Assembly: GCA_009839505.1 (NCBI GenBank)
Contig: VXPO01000013.1
Location: 1 to 40,794, forward strand
DNA: 40,794 nucleotides
Source: Gammaproteobacteria bacterium
Lineage (GTDB): Bacteria; Pseudomonadota; Gammaproteobacteria; Pseudomonadales; Azotimanducaceae
Direction: 5' to 3'
Shown here piece after piece: positions 23,123-32,972 of this stretch. The position numbers and the translations under genes were made by a program. Numbering within the stretch: position 1 is the first letter of the stretch; each line of letters starts with the position of its first letter. The notes under the pieces were generated by a model that saw only the letters and a program-made list of their open reading frames with translations, was not told the DNA's origin and searched no databases.

Positions 23123-24265
23123 ATGAGCCAGGAAACGCCGACACGCACAGCACACAGACGGGCGCGCGGCGCCCTGTGGGCATCAACGGGATTTTATGTC
23201 CTGATCGCCTTCGAGTTCTTTTACATGGCCTCCCCCTTCGCCGCATATCTCTATGCGGTCTACGGCCCGGGGCTCGACTGGCTGCAAGCCTCCTGGGCAA
23301 CCAGCTGGGCCATCCACTTCTTCCTGCCGCATATTGTTGCCGAGACGCGATCCGTGCTGGTCAACGCCCTGGAATCCGTCGGTTTCGCTCTCTTCGGGGC
23401 GGGTCTGGCCGGTTTCGCGGCCGGAGTGTTCCAGATCTACCGTGCCAAGCTGCGCCGCAGCGACGCCGTGATGGGCGGGCTGTACCGGCATATCCGACAC
23501 CCCCAGTACCTGGCCCTGATCGTCGCGAGCGTGGGCATGCTCCTGATCTGGCCGAGATACCTGGTGGTGATCGCGACCGTCACGGTCATCTTCGTCTACA
23601 TCGCGCTGGCCAAGGCGGAAGAACGCATCTGCCTGAGGCAGTTCACCGGCTACGCCGATTACATGCGGCGAACCGGAATGTTCCTTCCTGCATTCCTGAC
23701 ACCGGACTTCCCGCTGCCTGACGGAACCCGCATCGCTACGCGTGTTGCGGCATGGTCGTTCACGTACGCCGCTGTCCTTGCATCAGCCTTGCTCGCCGCA
23801 TCCATGTTGCGCACCTACGCCCTCGACTCGCTCTATCGCACCGAGGTCGAAGACAACGTCTACTTGTCTGTCGTCGAAATCAGTGACGGGGACCTGGAGG
23901 CCGTCGCAACGCTTGCAAGTTCCGCCGCCGGTGCCAAGCAATCACTGGCCGGCCGGCAACACCTGTTGAATTTTGTCATCCCCGCCGAGATGTACATCTC
24001 AGAGATCCCCATGAACCTGCCACCGGGGGCGTCGTTCGGTCACGAGGTGCCCGAAAACCGAGATCCCGCGCTGTACAAAGTCGTCTTCACCGAACCGATC
24101 TTCGATGGAGACGGACTGCCGCCGGATGGGGATGTGCTGGCGCATGCCGTCAACAAGATGCCATTGGTCGAGGTGCATGTGGATCTGGCCGCAAACGAAG
24201 TCAGCGTGGTGATTCCGCCACCCGAAAAACCGTTCTACGGCAATCGGCAGGTGCCGGTGTTCTAG
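23123..24265 (+). CDS. Isoprenylcysteine/phospholipid methyltransferase-like membrane protein with novel C-terminal domain
   Basis: A protein of 380 aa. It has four or five membrane helices in the first 190 residues, then the ICMT/PEMT-family SAM-binding motif GLYRHIRHPQYLALI (119-133) and the C-terminal partner EE...QFTGYADYMRRTGMFLP (167-189). A further helix (about 208-228) is followed by ~150 residues of a soluble domain that I do not recognise (EDNVYLSVVEISDGDLEAV to the end). The methyl acceptor is unknown: lipid, prenyl-cysteine or a small molecule. GAGG lies 9 bp before the ATG. The TAG stop codon is the CTAG at the left boundary of the IS. It sits inside an island bounded by IS sequence. 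Confidence 0.8.
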   Translation: MSQETPTRTAHRRARGALWASTGFYVLIAFEFFYMASPFAAYLYAVYGPGLDWLQASWATSWAIHFFLPHIVAETRSVLVNALESVGFALFGAGLAGFAAGVFQIYRAKLRRSDAVMGGLYRHIRHPQYLALIVASVGMLLIWPRYLVVIATVTVIFVYIALAKAEERICLRQFTGYADYMRRTGMFLPAFLTPDFPLPDGTRIATRVAAWSFTYAAVLASALLAASMLRTYALDSLYRTEVEDNVYLSVVEISDGDLEAVATLASSAAGAKQSLAGRQHLLNFVIPAEMYISEIPMNLPPGASFGHEVPENRDPALYKVVFTEPIFDGDGLPPDGDVLAHAVNKMPLVEVHVDLAANEVSVVIPPPEKPFYGNRQVPVF

Positions 24266-25768
24266 CAGCCCCTGGCAAAAGTCCATCGAGCATCGGTCCG
24301 ATCAAAGGTAAAATTCGTTGGCAAGTAAACGGCTGGAAATCAGTATGGCAGTCGGTAAGCGATCGGCGGGACGGCAAGACGAGATGTTCGTTGCAACGAG
24401 TGAGATTCGCCGCCTGAGCCACCCGTTCTACCAAGCACTGGAGCGGATGCTGAAAAACGAGGGATTCGACGCCTTTGCCGAAGCAACGTGTCGCGAGTTC
24501 TATGCGGAGAAAAACGGTCGGCCGGGGATTCCGCCGGGCATGTATTTCCGCATGCTGCTGATTGGCTACCTGGAAGGGATCGGTTCGGAACGCGGCATTG
24601 CGTGGCGGTGCGCGGACTCGATTTCGCTGCGCGACTTTCTCGGCTACGGGTTGTCGAAGAATCCGCCGGATCATTCGAGTGTATCGAGGACGCGCCGGCG
24701 GTTGAGCCTGGAGGCGCACGAGGCGGTGTTCGGCTGGGTGCTTGAGCGGCTGCACTCGTCGGGTCTATTGATCGGCAAGACACTGGGCGTGGACGCGACG
24801 ACGCTGGAAGCCAACGCGGCGCTGCGTTCGATCGTGCGTCGGGACGACGGGACCGGCTACGAGGACTGGCTTGAGGAGTTGGCGCAGGCGTCGGGGATCG
24901 ACACGCCGACGCGCGCGGAGTTGGCAAAGCTGGACCGCAAGAGGCCGAAGAAGGGATCGAACGACGACTGGACGCACCCGGGAGACCCCGAGGCCCGGAT
25001 CACGAAGATGAAGGACGGCCGCACGCATCTGGCGCACAAGCTGGAGCAGGCGTCGGACATGGATTCCGGGGCGGTTGTGGCGGTGACGGTGCAGACCATG
25101 GACGGGGACGATTGCGCCTCGATGCCCGTGACGCTTGACGAGGCCGGGCGACAGTTGTCGGCCTTGGCAATCGAGCCGCGAGAGGCGGTGGCCGACAAGG
25201 GGTATCACAGCAACGCCACGATGAAACGACTCAAGGCGGGTGGCTTGCGCAGCTACGTCAGCGAACCCGACCGGGGCCGGCGCAGCTGGAACGCGATCCG
25301 GACGCAAAGGACCCGACCTACGCGAATCGCCGCCGGGTCCGGGGCGCTCGGGGCAAACGGCTGTTGCGTCGGCGCGGCGAGATTCTTGAGCGGGCGTTTG
25401 CACATCTTCTGGAGACCGGCGGGCTGCGTCGCGTGCATCTCCGAGGGCAGGAGAACATCCGCAAACGCATGCTGGTTCATGCGGCGGCCTTCAATCTCGG
25501 GTTGCTGATGCGGAGCCGATTCGGATACGGGACCCCGCGAGCCATGCAGGGACACGCGATTGCGCAAGCCGAACTGGCGAAACGGGCGGCAAGGGCCGCA
25601 ATTCGGCCTGTCATTCGCTTGACAATCCGTTTTCTGAGCATTTTTCCGCCGAAAATGGGACGATCATCGAAGTTGAAGACTAACAAGTTTACGCACGTCC
25701 ACCTGAGGTCGCCGTTTCGTGGGTATGAGTCTCTTGCCTCAAAAGCAGGTTTTGCCACGGGCTGCTAG
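24262..25768 (+). mobile_element. Complete insertion sequence, CTAG target, IS1182-like/IS4-superfamily
   Basis: The element is 1,499 bp (24266-25764) between two CTAG tetranucleotides, consistent with a 4-bp target duplication, although CTAG is palindromic and could also belong to the ends. Terminal inverted repeats are 15 bp with one mismatch: CAGCCCCTGGCAAAA left, CAGCCCGTGGCAAAA right. It carries one DDE transposase with a frameshift. The left CTAG contains the stop codon of the preceding methyltransferase-like gene. The family name is assigned from remembered transposase motifs and should be checked. Confidence 0.88.
24345..25768 (+). pseudogene. DDE transposase, frameshifted
   Basis: The first frame (24345 to ~25292) gives the N-terminal helical domain and two catalytic aspartates, in GVDATTLEAN and VADKGYHSN. 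Around 25290 the reading frame must shift by -1 to continue into ANRRRVRGARGKRLLRRRGE and the third catalytic residue, the glutamate in RGQENIRKRML. The second frame ends at the TAG of the right-hand CTAG. Without the shift, the first frame runs to a stop at 25508 with unrelated sequence. No classical slippery heptamer was seen at the junction, so this looks like decay rather than programmed frameshifting. Confidence 0.85.
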
Positions 25769-26922: not shown

Positions 26923-27507
26923 ATGAACGAACGCCGACGCCGCAACCGAATAGACCGGGTCACGACCCGGAGCGGCGATACCGGCGAGACGTCGCTGGCC
27001 GATGGTCGCCGCTACCCCAAGCACCACTCGAAGATCGAACTGGCTGGTGCCCTCGACGAGGCCAACACTTTCATGGGGGCACTGGCGGAAGAGACGGACG
27101 CATCGGTCACCAGGCGCCTGCGCGCCCTGCAAGCGCGGCTCTTCGACCTCGGTGCCGTCGTCGCCACTGGACACTCGGAAATCGACTGGCACTCCCTCGC
27201 GGCGAACGTGGACCAGGACACTGCGAAACTCAACACGAATCTGAAGCCGCTGCGGGAGTTCATCCTGCCTGGTGGCGGGCGGGCGGCCGCGGCAGCGCAC
27301 GTCGCCCGCGCTGCGGTCCGCCGCGCCGAACGCGCCTGGTGGGCGGCAGCGGACGAATCAAGCGACCTCGCCGCAACCGGTGCCGGCGTCTTTCTGAACC
27401 GCCTTTCGGATCACCTGTTCGTGTTGGCGCGGACGCTGGCCAACACCGAAGTGGTTTGGGAACCGCTACAACACCAGGCGCCGGACGTCTCCGAGAAGCC
27501 GACCTAG
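26923..27507 (+). CDS. ATP:cob(I)alamin adenosyltransferase, PduO type
   Basis: A protein of 194 aa. It transfers the adenosyl group of ATP to cob(I)alamin, making coenzyme B12. The N-terminal ATP loop reads TRSGDTGETSLADGRR, and the conserved helices ARAAVRRAERAWW and FLNRLSDHLFVLAR carry the arginine, asparagine and aspartate residues of the active site. The gene starts at an ATG 36 bp from the yajQ start, on the opposite strand. Its last 42 bp overlap the convergent aceF 3' end. No other B12 gene is in the window. Confidence 0.92.
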   Translation: MNERRRRNRIDRVTTRSGDTGETSLADGRRYPKHHSKIELAGALDEANTFMGALAEETDASVTRRLRALQARLFDLGAVVATGHSEIDWHSLAANVDQDTAKLNTNLKPLREFILPGGGRAAAAAHVARAAVRRAERAWWAAADESSDLAATGAGVFLNRLSDHLFVLARTLANTEVVWEPLQHQAPDVSEKPT

Positions 27508-29034
27508 CTCGACGACGAACCTTCCAGCCTCGGCGCCGTTGATGGCGCGATGATCGTAGGACAGCGATACCGGGAGGATCTTGCGGGGTTGGAACGCACT
27601 GCCGTCCCAGACAGGCCGCGTGTCGAGCCGCGCGACGCCGAGGATGGCTACTTCCGGGGCATTGACGATGGGTGTGAAACCCGTACCGCCCACGGCGCCC
27701 AAGCTCGAGATGGTGAAGCTGCCGCCCTGCATCTCCTCCGGCTTGAGCTTCTTCGAGCGAGCCGCGTCCGACAGCCGGGCGATTTCACGGGCGAGTTCGT
27801 AGATTCCCTTGCTGCCGGCGTCGCGCACCACGGGAACAACGAGCCCGTCCTCGGTGTCCACCGCGAAACCGATGTGGTGATAGCGCTTGAGAATCAGTGA
27901 GGTGACTGTTGGGTCGAGGGACGCGTTGAATTGCGGATGGGTCCTTAGCGCGTGGACGCACGCCATCACGATGAACGGCAGCGGCGTCAGCTTGACCTCT
28001 CGGGAAGCCGCCTCCTCCTTCAACGCCGCGCGGAATGCCTCTAGGTCCGTGACGTCGATGTCGTCGTGCTGGGTGACATGAACGACGTGCTGCCAACTGC
28101 GGTGCAGGTTCGCGGCACCGCGGGCACGGATGCGCGACAGCGGCACAGTCTCGATGTCCCCGAATCGGGAGAAGTCCACCGCCTCCATGGGTGCGATACC
28201 CGGGGTCGCGCCTGTTCCCAGGCTCTGCTTCACGAACGCCTTGACGTCGTCCTTGACGATGCGCCCACGCGCCCCGGAGCCGTTCACGGCGACGAGGTCG
28301 ACTCCGAGTTCCCTGGCCAAGCGGCGCACCGCCGGACCGGCGTAGACCTTGCTTCCCGTTCCGGTCGTGGACTCTTCGGGCGGCACAGGTTGCACGGGCA
28401 CGGTCGCTACCGTTGTCGCCGAGGCCCCTTCGGCTTCGGGCGCGGCCGACGAGCGCGGCCCTTCGACCTCGCCCTCGAGGACCACCAACAGGGTCGACTC
28501 CTCGACCCCATCGCCTTCCTTCACCGCCACTTCGACCACCGTGCCCGCGAACGGCGTTGGAATCTCCATGGAGGCCTTCTCGGATTCCACCACCACCAGC
28601 AGATCGTCCACGCCGACCTGCTGGCCCTCGGCCACCGCCACCTCGATGACCGAGACGTTTTCAGCCTCGCCGATGTCCGGCACGCGGATCTCGATCCGTT
28701 CCCTCGCCGTGGAAGGCGCATCGACTACCGGTGGCGTGTCAGGAAGCGCGATCGAACCGTCGGCGGCGTCGGGTGGAACGACGGCCTCGGCCGACTGTTC
28801 GTCCTCCACCGCATCCATGCGCAGAATCGGATCGCCGGCATTCACCAGATCGCCCAGTGTCACCAGCACGGCATCGACGGTACCGGTGAACGGTGCCGGA
28901 ACCTCCATGGACGCCTTGTCCGACTCGATGACGATAAGCGCGTCGTTTTCGGCCACGGCGTCTCCCGGCCCGACGCAGATCTCGATGACCTCCACGTCCT
29001 GGGCATCGCCGATGTCCGGGATGGTCACATCCAT
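27466..29034 (-). CDS. aceF: Pyruvate dehydrogenase E2, dihydrolipoamide acetyltransferase
   Basis: A protein of 522 aa. Two lipoyl domains are present, with lipoylated lysines at Lys40 (ESDKASME) and Lys153 (ESEKASME). A flexible Ala/Pro linker, a peripheral subunit-binding domain (about 229-267, VYAGPAVRRLARELGVD) and the acetyltransferase core follow. The catalytic motif reads DHRAING near the C-terminus; asparagine in place of aspartate is the Azotobacter/Pseudomonas form of this enzyme. It transfers acetyl groups from lipoamide to CoA. Its start overlaps the aceE stop by 1 bp (TGATG). No E3 (lpd) gene is in the operon. Confidence 0.96.
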   Translation of the reverse strand: MDVTIPDIGDAQDVEVIEICVGPGDAVAENDALIVIESDKASMEVPAPFTGTVDAVLVTLGDLVNAGDPILRMDAVEDEQSAEAVVPPDAADGSIALPDTPPVVDAPSTARERIEIRVPDIGEAENVSVIEVAVAEGQQVGVDDLLVVVESEKASMEIPTPFAGTVVEVAVKEGDGVEESTLLVVLEGEVEGPRSSAAPEAEGASATTVATVPVQPVPPEESTTGTGSKVYAGPAVRRLARELGVDLVAVNGSGARGRIVKDDVKAFVKQSLGTGATPGIAPMEAVDFSRFGDIETVPLSRIRARGAANLHRSWQHVVHVTQHDDIDVTDLEAFRAALKEEAASREVKLTPLPFIVMACVHALRTHPQFNASLDPTVTSLILKRYHHIGFAVDTEDGLVVPVVRDAGSKGIYELAREIARLSDAARSKKLKPEEMQGGSFTISSLGAVGGTGFTPIVNAPEVAILGVARLDTRPVWDGSAFQPRKILPVSLSYDHRAINGAEAGRFVVELGRLLGDVRRLVL

Positions 29035-31757
29035 CAGGACAGCCTCGGGTTGTCCTTGTCCGGAGAAATGTCCATGGCCGTCATGGCATCGACCACCTCG
29101 GCGGCCGATACCACCTGCCGGTCCTGCAACTCGCGCAGCGCCGCCAGCGTGACGAAGCGCTCGTCCACCTCGAAGAAGTCGCGCAGCTTCTCCCGGGTAT
29201 CGCTACGCCCGAACCCGTCCGTGCCGAGCACCCGATAGGCAGGCGCCCTAAAATAGCCACGAATCGATTCGGCATGCGCCTTGATGTAGTCCGTGGAGCC
29301 GATTACCGGCCAGTCCCCATCCAGGCATTCGGCCACATGACTGCGGCGCGGCGCTTCCGCCGGATGCAGCAGGTTCCAACGCGCCACATCGGCCCCGTCG
29401 CGCGCGAGTTCGATGAAGCTGGTCACGCTGTAGACCTCGGTCGAGACGCCATAGTCCTCGTACAGCCGTCGCGCTGCCTTCTGCACTTCGCGCAGGATGG
29501 TTCCGCTGCCCAACAGGCGCACCTTCTTGGAACGGCTTCGTCCATGGCTTTCCAGCCGATACATCCCCTTGAGAATTCCATCTTCAACGCCCTTCGGCAT
29601 TGCCGGTTGGGGATAGTTCTCGTTCATTACCGTGATATAGAAGAAGACCCGCTCGCGGTCCTCGAACATGCGCTTCAAGCCGTCCTGGACGATCACCGCC
29701 AGCTCGTAGGCGAAGCAAGGATCGTAGGCGACGCAGTTGGGGATCGCCGACGCCAACAGGTGGCTGTGGCCGTCCTGATGCTGCAGACCCTCACCGTTCA
29801 ACGTCGTGCGGCCGGCCGTGGCACCTAGAAGAAAACCGCGCGCCTGCATGTCGCCCGCGGCCCAGGCCAGGTCGCCCACCCGCTGGAAGCCGAACATCGA
29901 ATAAAAGATGTAGAACGGAATCAACGTGTAGCGGTGGGTGCTGTAGGACGTCGCCGCGGCCAGCCACGCCGCGAAGGAGCCGGCCTCGTTGATCCCTTCC
30001 TCCAGCACCTGGCCATCCTTGGACTCCCGGTACGAGGCGATTTCGCCGAAGTCCTCCGGCTCGTACAGCTGGCCCTCGGAGGAATAGATGCCGAGTTGCC
30101 GAAACATGCCCTCCATGCCGAAGGTCCGCGCCTCGTCGGGAATAATGGGCACGACGCGGTTGCCGATGCCCTTGTCGCGCGCCAAGGTCGACAGCATCCG
30201 GACGAACGCCATGGTCGTCGAGACGGCTCGGTCGCCGGTACCGTTCAGCTGCTGCTCGAATACCTCGAGCGCCGGGACACCGACTTCGCCTTCGTCGCCG
30301 ACCCGCATCGGGATCGGTCCGCCGAGACCCTCGCGCTGGCGCTTCAGGTAGATCGACTCCGGCGCGTCCGGCGGCGGCCGGTAGTAGGGCACGTTCTCGA
30401 GTTCACCATCCGTCAGCGGTACCGCGAAGCGGTCGCGGAAATGCTTCAGATCCTCGAGTTCGAGTTTTTTGACCTGATGTGTGGTGTTCTCGGCCTCCCC
30501 GGCATCGCCCATGCCGTAGCCCTTGACGGTCTTGGCGAGGATCACGGTGGGTTCGCCACGGTGGTTCATCGCTGCGTGGTAGGCGGCGTAGACCTTGAAC
30601 GGATCGTGCCCGCCGCGGTTTAGGCGCATGATGTCGTCGTCCGACAGGTGCTCGACGAGCCGCTTGAGGTCGTCATACTTGCCGAAGAAGTGCTCCCGGG
30701 TATAGGCACCTCCCTTGGCCTTGTAGTTCTGGTACTCGCCATCCACGGCCTCGTCCATGCGCTGCTGCATGAGGCCTTCCGCGTCGTTGGCGAACAGCGG
30801 ATCCCAGAGTCGCCCCCAAACCACCTTGATGACGTTCCAGCCCGCGCCGCGGAACGCTCCTTCGAGTTCCTGGATGATCTTGCCGTTGCCGCGGACGGGG
30901 CCGTCGAGCCGCTGCAGATTGCAGTTGACCACGAAGACCAGGTTGTCGAGCTTCTCCCTTCCGGCGAGACCCAGCGCCCCCAGGGATTCCGGCTCGTCAC
31001 ATTCGCCGTCGCCGAGGAACGCCCAGACCTTGCGATCGCCCATGGGAATCAACCCGCGACTGTCCAGGTACTTCATGATGTGTGCCTGGTAGATCGCCTG
31101 GATCGGTCCCAGACCCATGGACACCGTGGGGAACTGCCAATAGTCCGGCATCAGCCACGGGTGCGGATACGATGGCAGGCCGTCGCCACCCACCTCTTGC
31201 CGGAAGGCGTCGAGCGCAGCCTCGTCGAGTCGACCTTCGAGGTACGAGCGGGCGTAGATCCCGGGCGAACTATGGCCCTGGAAGTAGATCAGGTCGCCCG
31301 CCTGATCGTCGGTGGGTCCGCGGAAGAAGTAGTTGAAGCCAACGTCGTAGAGCGTCGCAGCGGAGGCAAAGGTCGAAATATGGCCGCCGAGATCGCCGCT
31401 CTTGCGGTTGGCGCGCACCACCATCGCCAGTGCATTCCAACGGATCAATGACCGGATGCGGCGCTCCATGAAGAGATCCCCGGGCATCATCGCCTCGTGG
31501 TTCGCGGGGATGGTGTTGCGGTAGGGCGTGGTGATGGTGTACGGCAGCCGCGCGCCGGTCTCCGTCAACCGCGACGACAGTCGTTCCAGAAGGAAGTTGG
31601 CGCGCTCGATCCCCGCGTTCTCGAGTACGTACTCGAGGGAGTCGAGCCACTCGCGGGTCTCTTCGGGATCCGGATCCGCGCCGTTGACCGCACTCGGCCG
31701 ATCGAGGCGTTGTTGGCCATCCGATTCGGAAGGTGAAGCCTGTTCCCTAGCCCGCAT
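29034..31757 (-). CDS. aceE: Pyruvate dehydrogenase E1, homodimeric type
   Basis: A protein of 907 aa, normal for the single-chain gammaproteobacterial E1. It decarboxylates pyruvate with thiamine diphosphate and loads E2. The TPP motif starts at GDGECDEPES (249-258) and ends at VVNCNLQRLDG. Homology to known AceE begins around residue 29 (DPDPEETREWLDSLEYVLE); residues 1-28 are not conserved. The ATG lies inside the terminal repeat of a ~250-bp element, preceded by an in-frame TGA at -6, with GGTGAG as its ribosome-binding site. I see no other ATG, GTG or TTG in frame before the conserved region. Confidence 0.95.
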   Translation of the reverse strand: MRAREQASPSESDGQQRLDRPSAVNGADPDPEETREWLDSLEYVLENAGIERANFLLERLSSRLTETGARLPYTITTPYRNTIPANHEAMMPGDLFMERRIRSLIRWNALAMVVRANRKSGDLGGHISTFASAATLYDVGFNYFFRGPTDDQAGDLIYFQGHSSPGIYARSYLEGRLDEAALDAFRQEVGGDGLPSYPHPWLMPDYWQFPTVSMGLGPIQAIYQAHIMKYLDSRGLIPMGDRKVWAFLGDGECDEPESLGALGLAGREKLDNLVFVVNCNLQRLDGPVRGNGKIIQELEGAFRGAGWNVIKVVWGRLWDPLFANDAEGLMQQRMDEAVDGEYQNYKAKGGAYTREHFFGKYDDLKRLVEHLSDDDIMRLNRGGHDPFKVYAAYHAAMNHRGEPTVILAKTVKGYGMGDAGEAENTTHQVKKLELEDLKHFRDRFAVPLTDGELENVPYYRPPPDAPESIYLKRQREGLGGPIPMRVGDEGEVGVPALEVFEQQLNGTGDRAVSTTMAFVRMLSTLARDKGIGNRVVPIIPDEARTFGMEGMFRQLGIYSSEGQLYEPEDFGEIASYRESKDGQVLEEGINEAGSFAAWLAAATSYSTHRYTLIPFYIFYSMFGFQRVGDLAWAAGDMQARGFLLGATAGRTTLNGEGLQHQDGHSHLLASAIPNCVAYDPCFAYELAVIVQDGLKRMFEDRERVFFYITVMNENYPQPAMPKGVEDGILKGMYRLESHGRSRSKKVRLLGSGTILREVQKAARRLYEDYGVSTEVYSVTSFIELARDGADVARWNLLHPAEAPRRSHVAECLDGDWPVIGSTDYIKAHAESIRGYFRAPAYRVLGTDGFGRSDTREKLRDFFEVDERFVTLAALRELQDRQVVSAAEVVDAMTAMDISPDKDNPRLS

Positions 31758-31996
31758 ATCTCACCAAGGGCCACGATGATCGCGGAGGATTCCGGCCCTG
31801 TGCGCGTGCTCGCGACCGAGAGCATAGCGGGGCCTACGCCCGAGGGAGCACGTGCGCGCACAGGGCCGGGAGACCCGCGAGGGCGTGGCCAGCGCCGCCT
31901 GTTCACCCCCAATGGTTCCAAAACGCCCGAAAATACGTGAAGAACCAGTCAGTTGAGTCATGGCCACGAGCGACTTGGTGAGATATGCGGGCTAGG
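31746..31996. mobile_element. ~250-bp MITE-like element with 23-bp perfect inverted repeats, overlapping the aceE start
   Basis: Arms 31746-31768 and 31974-31996 are perfectly complementary over 23 bp. Each contains CTAG near its outer edge and GGTGAGATATGCGGGCTAG on the strand reading outward. The 205 bp between them has no convincing gene and contains a long imperfect hairpin. CTAG at both edges matches the other two elements of the window, suggesting a non-autonomous transposon at a CTAG target. The left arm supplies the aceE ribosome-binding site and start codon. An invertible promoter or a regulatory leader are alternatives. Confidence 0.7.
31779..31880. other. Long imperfect hairpin inside the 250-bp element
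   Basis: TCGCGG / CCGCGA pair at the base, then CCGGCCCTGTGCGCG pairs perfectly with CGCGCACAGGGCCGG (31792-31806 with 31855-31869), then TGCTC with GAGCA, leaving a ~35-nt apical region with further weak pairing. I could not match it to 6S, RNase P, SRP or tmRNA. It could be the fold of the mobile element or of an aceE leader RNA. Confidence 0.65.
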
Positions 31997-32028
31997 TGTT
32001 GCCATGGCGTTCCTTCTACGGGGCCCGG

Positions 32029-32034
32029 ATTATA
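32029..32034 (-). promoter_or_regulatory. Perfect -10 hexamer (TATAAT) pointing toward aceE
   Basis: Read on the minus strand, TATAAT occurs in a GC-rich context 33 bp outside the right arm of the 250-bp element. No good -35 was found at 16-18 bp. If used, the aceE leader would be ~265 nt and include both inverted-repeat arms. The remaining part of the 31997-32060 gap shows nothing else. Confidence 0.3.
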
Positions 32035-32060
32035 CTCCCGCCCCGATACTCCGACCCCGG

Positions 32061-32972
32061 TCAGCCGGATCGGTTCGGCCACAGGCGGGCGGCGCCGAGA
32101 ACGCCGCTGGAGTCGCCGTGCTCGGCAACCACCACCGTAGTCTCGCCCTCATGGGTGAAGCCGTAGCGGCCGAGTCGCTCAGACACGCGTTCGGCCAGAT
32201 GGTCCAGGTTCGACAGCCCGCCGCCTAAGACGATGGTGTCGGGATCCAGCACGTTAACGATCTGGGCCAGTGCCCGGCTCAGCATGGTGACGTAGAGGTC
32301 GACACTTGGCGCGTGGGGGTCAATCTCGTCTGCTGCGAGGCGCTCCCCGGTCAGCTGGCGATGCGTCTCCGCGAGCCCCTTTCCAGACAAGAAGGTTTCC
32401 ACGCAATTCTGCCGACCGCAGTAGCAGGGCCGATCACCCATGGTCCCCTCCTCCGACCGCGTGTACGGGTCGGCACGCAGATACGGCAGCGGCGTGTGCC
32501 CCCACTCCCCGGCGACGGCATTCGGCCCCTTGAGAAGACGACCGTCCACCACGATTCCGCCACCGACGCCGGTTCCGAGAATGACACCGAACACCACGTG
32601 CGCATCACGCGCGGCCCCGTCGAGTGCCTCGGACAGGGCGAAACAGTTTGCGTCGTTTTCAATACGCACACGCTCGCCGAGAACCTCGATGAGATCGTCC
32701 AGGAGCGGCTTGCCGTTGAGCCAGGTCGAGTTGCAGTTCTTCATGGAACGCGATGACTCCACCCACGCACCGGGGGTGCCGATGCCGACTGGCGGCCGCG
32801 CGTCGCAGGCCGCATCGATCCGCCCCACGAGTTTCGCGACCGCCGTGATCGTGCCCGCATAGTCCGGGGGCGTAGCTAGGCGCTCGCGCATGGGCACTCC
32901 GCCATCAGGGGCAAGCAGCACGGCCTCGGTCTTGGTGCCGCCCAAGTCGACGCCGATGCGCCCGCGCGTCAC
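32061..32972 (-). CDS. ROK family sugar kinase (fructokinase/N-acetylhexosamine kinase-like)
   Basis: A protein of 303 aa. It has the N-terminal phosphate-binding loop GVDLGGTKTE, the ENDANCFALSE motif with the catalytic aspartate, the second phosphate loop GTGVGGGIV, and the ROK zinc site built from GEWGH and the cysteines of CYCGRQNCVE. It should phosphorylate a hexose or amino sugar. The GTG start at 32972 overlaps the ampD stop (GTGA), so the two are coupled; an N-acetylhexosamine substrate from murein recycling would fit that neighbour but is inference. Confidence 0.9.
   Translation of the reverse strand: MTRGRIGVDLGGTKTEAVLLAPDGGVPMRERLATPPDYAGTITAVAKLVGRIDAACDARPPVGIGTPGAWVESSRSMKNCNSTWLNGKPLLDDLIEVLGERVRIENDANCFALSEALDGAARDAHVVFGVILGTGVGGGIVVDGRLLKGPNAVAGEWGHTPLPYLRADPYTRSEEGTMGDRPCYCGRQNCVETFLSGKGLAETHRQLTGERLAADEIDPHAPSVDLYVTMLSRALAQIVNVLDPDTIVLGGGLSNLDHLAERVSERLGRYGFTHEGETTVVVAEHGDSSGVLGAARLWPNRSG

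Follow-up and report, generated by a model that had tools for sequence, protein, structure and literature searches.

The stretch of DNA that we analysed (hereafter the window; 40,794 nucleotides) contains the pyruvate dehydrogenase genes aceE and aceF on the minus strand. The translated aceF ORF matches PDHac_trf_long above and PRK11854 below the cut-off, and the best named record for AceE outside our genome set comes from the metagenome-assembled gammaproteobacterium COS4_bin_44. An earlier note on this DNA had claimed that two perfectly complementary 23-bp arms, 205 bp apart, are the terminal repeats of a mobile element, and that one of them holds both the ribosome-binding site of aceE and its only in-frame start codon before the conserved region. 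Alignment of the arms (31746-31768 and 31974-31996) bears this out: they are 23 nt each, 100% complementary and separated by 205 nt, and the number of chance matches of the arm pattern expected within the window is 0.00. The mobile unit was refined to 31751-31991, a 241-bp MITE of a multi-copy family, flanked by duplicated CTAG and ending in an 18-nt terminal repeat, CCCGCATATCTCACCAAG; each 23-nt arm therefore has an outermost base that is not part of the element. On the minus strand the gene-side arm carries GGTGA (31765-31761) and ATG (31757-31755), with an in-frame TGA-GAT directly 5' of this ATG, and no further ATG, GTG or TTG was found in the aceE frame of the sequence read ahead of the conserved AceE region. 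The features of the locus, each with the evidence used in brackets, are as follows.

27466..29034, minus strand: aceF, 522 aa (family search)
29034..31757, minus strand: aceE, 907 aa, pyruvate dehydrogenase E1 (ORF, family search)
31747..31750, no strand: gene-side CTAG target duplication (flanks of other copies)
31751..31991, minus strand: MITE, 241 bp (near-full-length copies, flanks, repeat counts)
31751..31768, minus strand: gene-side terminal repeat with outward-reading GGTGA and ATG (arm alignment, repeat scan)
31755..31757, minus strand: start codon of the present aceE ORF, inside the repeat (sequence, ORF)
31761..31765, minus strand: GGTGA, putative Shine-Dalgarno sequence, inside the repeat (sequence, 16S-tail duplex)
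31792..31869, minus strand: inverted repeat within the MITE, with 36-nt arms that are 72% complementary (arm alignment)
31958..32005, minus strand: 15-codon ORF from the old start, with its TGA inside the element (leader analysis)
31974..31991, plus strand: far terminal repeat, the complementary arm (arm alignment, repeat scan)
31992..31995, no strand: far-side CTAG target duplication (flanks of other copies)
32003..32005, minus strand: old start codon of aceE, which serves as the start in relatives (relatives' loci)
32011..32015, minus strand: old ribosome-binding site AAGGA (sequence, relatives' loci)
32029..32034, minus strand: TATAAT, putative -10 element of the old promoter (sequence, relatives' loci)

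In relatives of the same genus aceE is uninterrupted and starts at the ATG that corresponds to position 32005 here. In particular, G001, whose AceE is ~95% identical, has the same promoter region, the same AAGGA, and ATG GCA ACA running straight into CCC AGG GAA CAG, while in G003, G010, G011, G002, G004 and G006 the gene reads ATG GC(A/C) GAC CCN AGG GAA CAG; G010 and G002 have CTAG at the exact insertion site. From these uninterrupted genes it follows that the window reads ATG GCA ACA C-(CTAG)-MITE-(CTAG)-G GAA CAG. The MITE thus sits inside codons 4-5 of aceE and turns MATPREQ into MRAREQ, with the repeat ATG in frame; the old start now encodes MATPSPHISPSRSWP and runs to a stop at 31958. 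That the element interrupts aceE itself had been overlooked in the earlier note, which held that an AceE starting elsewhere in relatives would refute it; relatives do start elsewhere, at the ATG now at 32005, and this argues against an old conserved device. The TATAAT that the earlier note had pointed to is present, and the eight nearest of the relatives compared (L032-L039) likewise have a TATAAT a short distance upstream of where aceE starts. Of the other genus genomes, 14 had an aceE locus that could be checked (in G009 the sequence is truncated there); none of these loci contains the repeat, even with up to four mismatches allowed, and the insertion is therefore lineage-specific.

The element has the features of a MITE: it is short (241 bp, and thus too short to encode a transposase), has perfect 18-nt terminal repeats, duplicates its target and occurs in dispersed copies. 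The genome of the window (G000) holds eight other near-full-length copies of 79-91% identity, and the 18-nt repeat gave 74 matches with at most three mismatches, the reversed pattern none. Identical 4-bp flanks were found for 12 of 22 paired copies (nine CTAG, three CTAA) and differing flanks for the remaining 10. The fact that one copy has TTAG on both sides, and others CTAA on both sides, identifies the outer four bases as duplicated target. CTAG itself is scarce in the sequence read (291 occurrences against ~516 expected from trinucleotides). By BLAST the family is present in seven of 16 genus genomes, G000 included; the exact YTAR-plus-repeat pattern occurs in one of 293 genomes of the order, that one being G000, in a sample that contained no other member of the genus. 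Rfam returned two weak matches below their gathering scores.

We looked for a parent transposon with matching ends and saw none at the DDE_Tnp_1 loci inspected in this genome, the IS1380 loci inspected in five genomes or the DUF772 loci inspected in this genome and the genus, all of them draft genomes. No transposase was recognised on inspection among the listed ORFs of a viral contig that carries one repeat match. Inverted repeats flanked by YTAR occur at nine of 18 DUF772 loci, and the MITE likewise has a 4-bp YTAR target. It resembles IS5/IS1182-like insertion sequences of the same genus in this target and in the 4-bp duplication but differs from them in its terminal repeats, and none of them was found with the repeat of the MITE; having no terminal repeat in common with such an element, it was not filed as IS5/IS1182-derived. 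At 24262-25768 the window also contains a pair of near-perfect inverted repeats, CTAGCAGCCC(C/G)TGGCAAA, which enclose an IS1182-like transposase ORF (24318-25508, with a score below the NCBIfam cut-off); this element thus shares its CTAG target with the MITE. Beside several MITE ends on contigs C164, C151, C165 and C67 of G000, another repeat follows CTAG, beginning near CGCCGCCAAGACGCCTCGC and yielding a recurring peptide, MRASAAKTPRGLGVRPQPPP; it is possibly a second family or a composite. At gspI (contig C136) and at a locus of genome G011 (L104), the duplicated YTAG is directly preceded, in the far flank itself, by ATGCGGG, a heptamer identical to the element's own end.

The repeat places of G000 were fetched as 55 groups, and 77 ends were scanned with up to four mismatches; GGTGA-NNN-ATG is intact in 54 of them. 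Among 20 repeat-started ORFs submitted to Pfam, 16 gave matches. Those with the repeat ATG present are a thiamine pyrophosphate (TPP) enzyme, PGI, an ABC permease, an M20 peptidase, TilS, a kynureninase-like protein, PEP mutase, a ParA-like ATPase, an SDR, PgsA, RuvC, CxxCxxCC (YcgN), GspI and DivIC (FtsB); the tRNA-synt_1b match has ATC rather than ATG in the repeat, and the HpcH_HpaI match lies far inside an ORF whose frame was not called coding. NCBIfam placed RpiA, the TPP enzyme, PgsA, TilS, YcgN and YciK above the cut-off and ParA and FtsB below it, and gave no hit for the C69 and kynureninase-like ORFs. (The RpiA repeat is more diverged and is not among the 77 ends.) The family profiles begin a few residues from the repeat ATG, for example in the TPP enzyme, PgsA, RuvC, RpiA, YcgN and GspI. 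Some of the in-frame ORFs, namely those at C86, C67:15247 and C114, probably have their start past the element. The iscS and pilM cases in G001 were judged by eye.

When the element is bridged in the frame of the gene, an old start can still be seen at eight loci, two to four codons ahead of the site. With a slash for the element, these read MATP/REQ (aceE), VT/SQDEL from a GTG (rpiA), MVA/RIN (tilS), MA/KSEP (ycgN), MPGA/EHD (the YciK-like SDR), MS/SAPS (the lipoprotein-like C69 ORF), MRA/RPAS (gspI) and MRT/GFPS (pgsA). No old start was seen nearby at ruvC, pgi and the C10 permease, three of the 10 loci drawn, nor at the TPP enzyme. The far-side YTAG completes the TAG stop of the upstream gene at tilS, pgsA, gspI, the YciK-like SDR and the C10 permease, and at pgi (C130:16921), where a 31-bp remnant is left, the repeat plus CTAG provides, as judged by eye, both the TAG of the preceding ORF and the ATG of pgi. 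(Upstream gene names were likewise assigned by eye.) In relatives rpiA begins near the same place and several copies overlap the upstream stop; pgsA of G006, with no element ahead of it, overlaps the upstream stop likewise; and ruvC of six relatives has an ATG start two codons downstream of the new one. A MITE copy lies just past the 3' end of pgsA in G006 (L096), the G000 element being at the 5' end of that gene. Element lengths range from 241 bp at aceE through 54-78 bp at ycgN, tilS, gspI, the yciK-like gene and ruvC and 31 bp at pgi to ~27 bp at the parA-like gene and ftsB. We make no claim that the gene-facing repeat is selectively retained, because many single repeats face no gene.

These observations lead us to favour, with good though not full confidence, a reading in which a CTAG spanning codons 4-5 of aceE was the target of the MITE and was duplicated on its insertion, and the repeat supplied a replacement Shine-Dalgarno sequence and start codon. 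Outward from each intact end the sequence is GGTGA-NNN-ATG-CGG-G and, once joined to CTAG, ATG CGG GCT AGN; a gene with CTAG in the NCT-AGN phase would for that reason gain a Shine-Dalgarno sequence and a start and lose just its first few residues. Since CTAG contains TAG, a target that is also the stop of an overlapping upstream gene would leave that stop in the far copy. With a start supplied and a stop kept, insertion at gene starts and at stop/start junctions would be nearly non-destructive. Start replacement, the core of this reading, is well supported by the sequences, from which site, duplication, frame, recurrence and frame bias can be read; we infer that the new aceE start is used.

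To assess the frame bias we trained a coding model, using 154 long ORFs. Of the 77 ends, 31 face sense coding, 28 antisense and 17 none, and one was too short. Among the 31 sense-facing ends, 19 are in the ATG frame, where 17 have ATG and two have ATC, and the other frames hold 10 and two. For comparison, insertions were simulated in both orientations at 209 CTAG sites remote from the element; these gave 29, 83 and 23, or 29 of 135 in the start frame. The difference between 19/31 and 29/135 has a Fisher p of 3.5e-5 and, for the ATG-bearing ends (17/27), 4.0e-5; both values are post hoc, as the test was devised once the pattern had been seen and its null comes from CTAG sites only. In other genomes 43 distinct ends gave frames of eight, two and two (8/12 in the start frame, p=0.002). 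(The statistic uses all ends; a count confined to the insertions within coding sequences, which were found through in-frame ORFs, would be circular.) As a point against the favoured reading, a possible start two to seven codons past the element is seen at three ends that are out of frame too (C67:15387, C181:4962 and C93:52900). Survivorship alone is the probable source of this bias: the element would insert in any frame, gene-breaking insertions would be lost, and the repeat would not have evolved to donate starts. Transposition by itself already requires that the repeat be conserved, and for 58 of the 77 ends there is no sense coding in frame (46 do not face it and 12 face it out of frame, counts that also weigh against start replacement). 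Survivorship is compatible with start replacement at aceE, since a working start is still needed; it differs from it in evolutionary purpose alone.

We then considered the aceE leader, for which a transcript start at 32022 was assumed. The earlier note had predicted that the whole leader would fold so as to hide the ribosome-binding site and AUG, and in the fold model it does: GGUGAGAUAUG is fully paired (probability unpaired 0.0), and the leader has an energy of -154.1 kcal/mol (z -8.2). In the same model a ribosome covering the far arm raises the accessibility of the new start to 0.49 or 0.53 (0.48 for the native site of G001); against the favoured reading, it stays at 0.0 when the ribosome sits on the old AUG or on the stop of the short ORF. 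The duplex with an assumed 16S tail is predicted at -7.4 kcal/mol for the repeat versus -5.7 for the old site. A transcript from the old promoter would carry both arms, the arm duplex would hide the new start, and ribosomes on the 15-codon ORF would cover the far arm and expose it. We regard such coupling as plausible, somewhat short of an even chance, and as an addition to start replacement rather than part of its core. In erm-type leader-ORF attenuation, too, a short ORF overlaps an arm that hides the next start; the aceE case differs in having no inducer, stall site or conservation, and its geometry comes from an insertion.

Transcription might instead begin inside the element, so that the mRNA would have the gene-side arm only and form no hairpin. 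In the fold model the new start is about half accessible in transcripts beginning at 31960 or 31860 (0.50 and 0.43), and an outward promoter is described in passages on MITEAba12 (PMC6382973), but a consensus scan of 31700-32150, for one promoter type only and one that missed the old promoter too, found none; we consider an internal start unlikely. Still less likely is that aceE is silenced or nearly so, its start cut off, the new one blocked by the hairpin and a second AceE taking over. The new start is indeed wholly paired in the full leader, and loss of aceE would be survivable because the genome encodes a second AceE, 51% identical (C146:5105-7681). (Each of the 15 other genus genomes likewise has a listed second match, at 50-53%, which in G015 is broken into pieces.) The aceE frame, however, is intact across 907 codons, rpiA and ruvC, each with a single match in G000, have the same repeat-start arrangement, and no relaxation of constraint is evident in aceE on this branch (polarised changes 10 N/54 S, against 15 N/44 S on the G001 branch; p=0.19), although none would be expected to show if the insertion were very recent. 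The domesticated switch of the earlier note, a hairpin kept because it regulates the pyruvate dehydrogenase operon on a signal, retains its computed occlusion and release and the low energy of the leader but is very improbable, since the element is not conserved and is missing at aceE in 14 relatives, a recent insertion already predicts perfect arms, and the same ends stand at unrelated genes.

That the ends of a MITE can donate starts has a precedent: MITEAba12 of Acinetobacter, read outward from its repeat, is reported to give the first four residues MQQS to three neighbouring coding sequences (PMC6382973). The two elements are alike in having start codons at their ends; the duplications of MITEAba12 are 9 bp and AT-rich, with no CTAG target, and the passages covered describe no ribosome-binding site in the repeat, old start across the element, frame test or preserved upstream stop. 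Rickettsia palindromic elements are also small mobile repeats that enter genes in frame, but, in the passages covered, they add an internal peptide, whereas the present MITE replaces the start (PMC10969869). QMITE1/2 of Coxiella (PMC5896051) and pneumococcal BOX (PMC3049150) are likewise multi-copy, MITE-like repeats that overlap genes. According to the parts of these papers covered, QMITEs are without effect on the 5' ends of genes of known function (PMC5896051), and in BOX stop codons are frequent and a start is encoded three times, the ORFs that begin there having neither good Shine-Dalgarno candidates nor known relatives (PMC3049150). As far as we have searched, and within the portions of the literature covered, what is new here is the presence of ribosome-binding site and start together in a repeat, core genes whose old starts can be seen past the element, a bias of frame throughout the genome, and a target duplication that keeps the upstream stop.

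More generally, the ends of this MITE could be portable translation starts with a stop-containing CTAG target: overlapping junctions would be split with the upstream stop kept, the downstream gene would be given a ribosome-binding site and AUG, and copies would then shrink to the start-bearing repeat. We hold this view tentatively, at close to but below an even chance. MITEs are known for promoters, for in-frame peptides and, with MITEAba12, for a few 5' fusions. Ends with a ribosome-binding site and AUG, a frame bias and a stop-protecting target would explain how such an element spreads in gene-dense genomes, and would also explain the separation of overlapping genes and core-protein N-termini that differ among close relatives. 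The annotation of starts needs care in such genomes and, if this view is true, transposon ends are a recurrent source of new gene starts.
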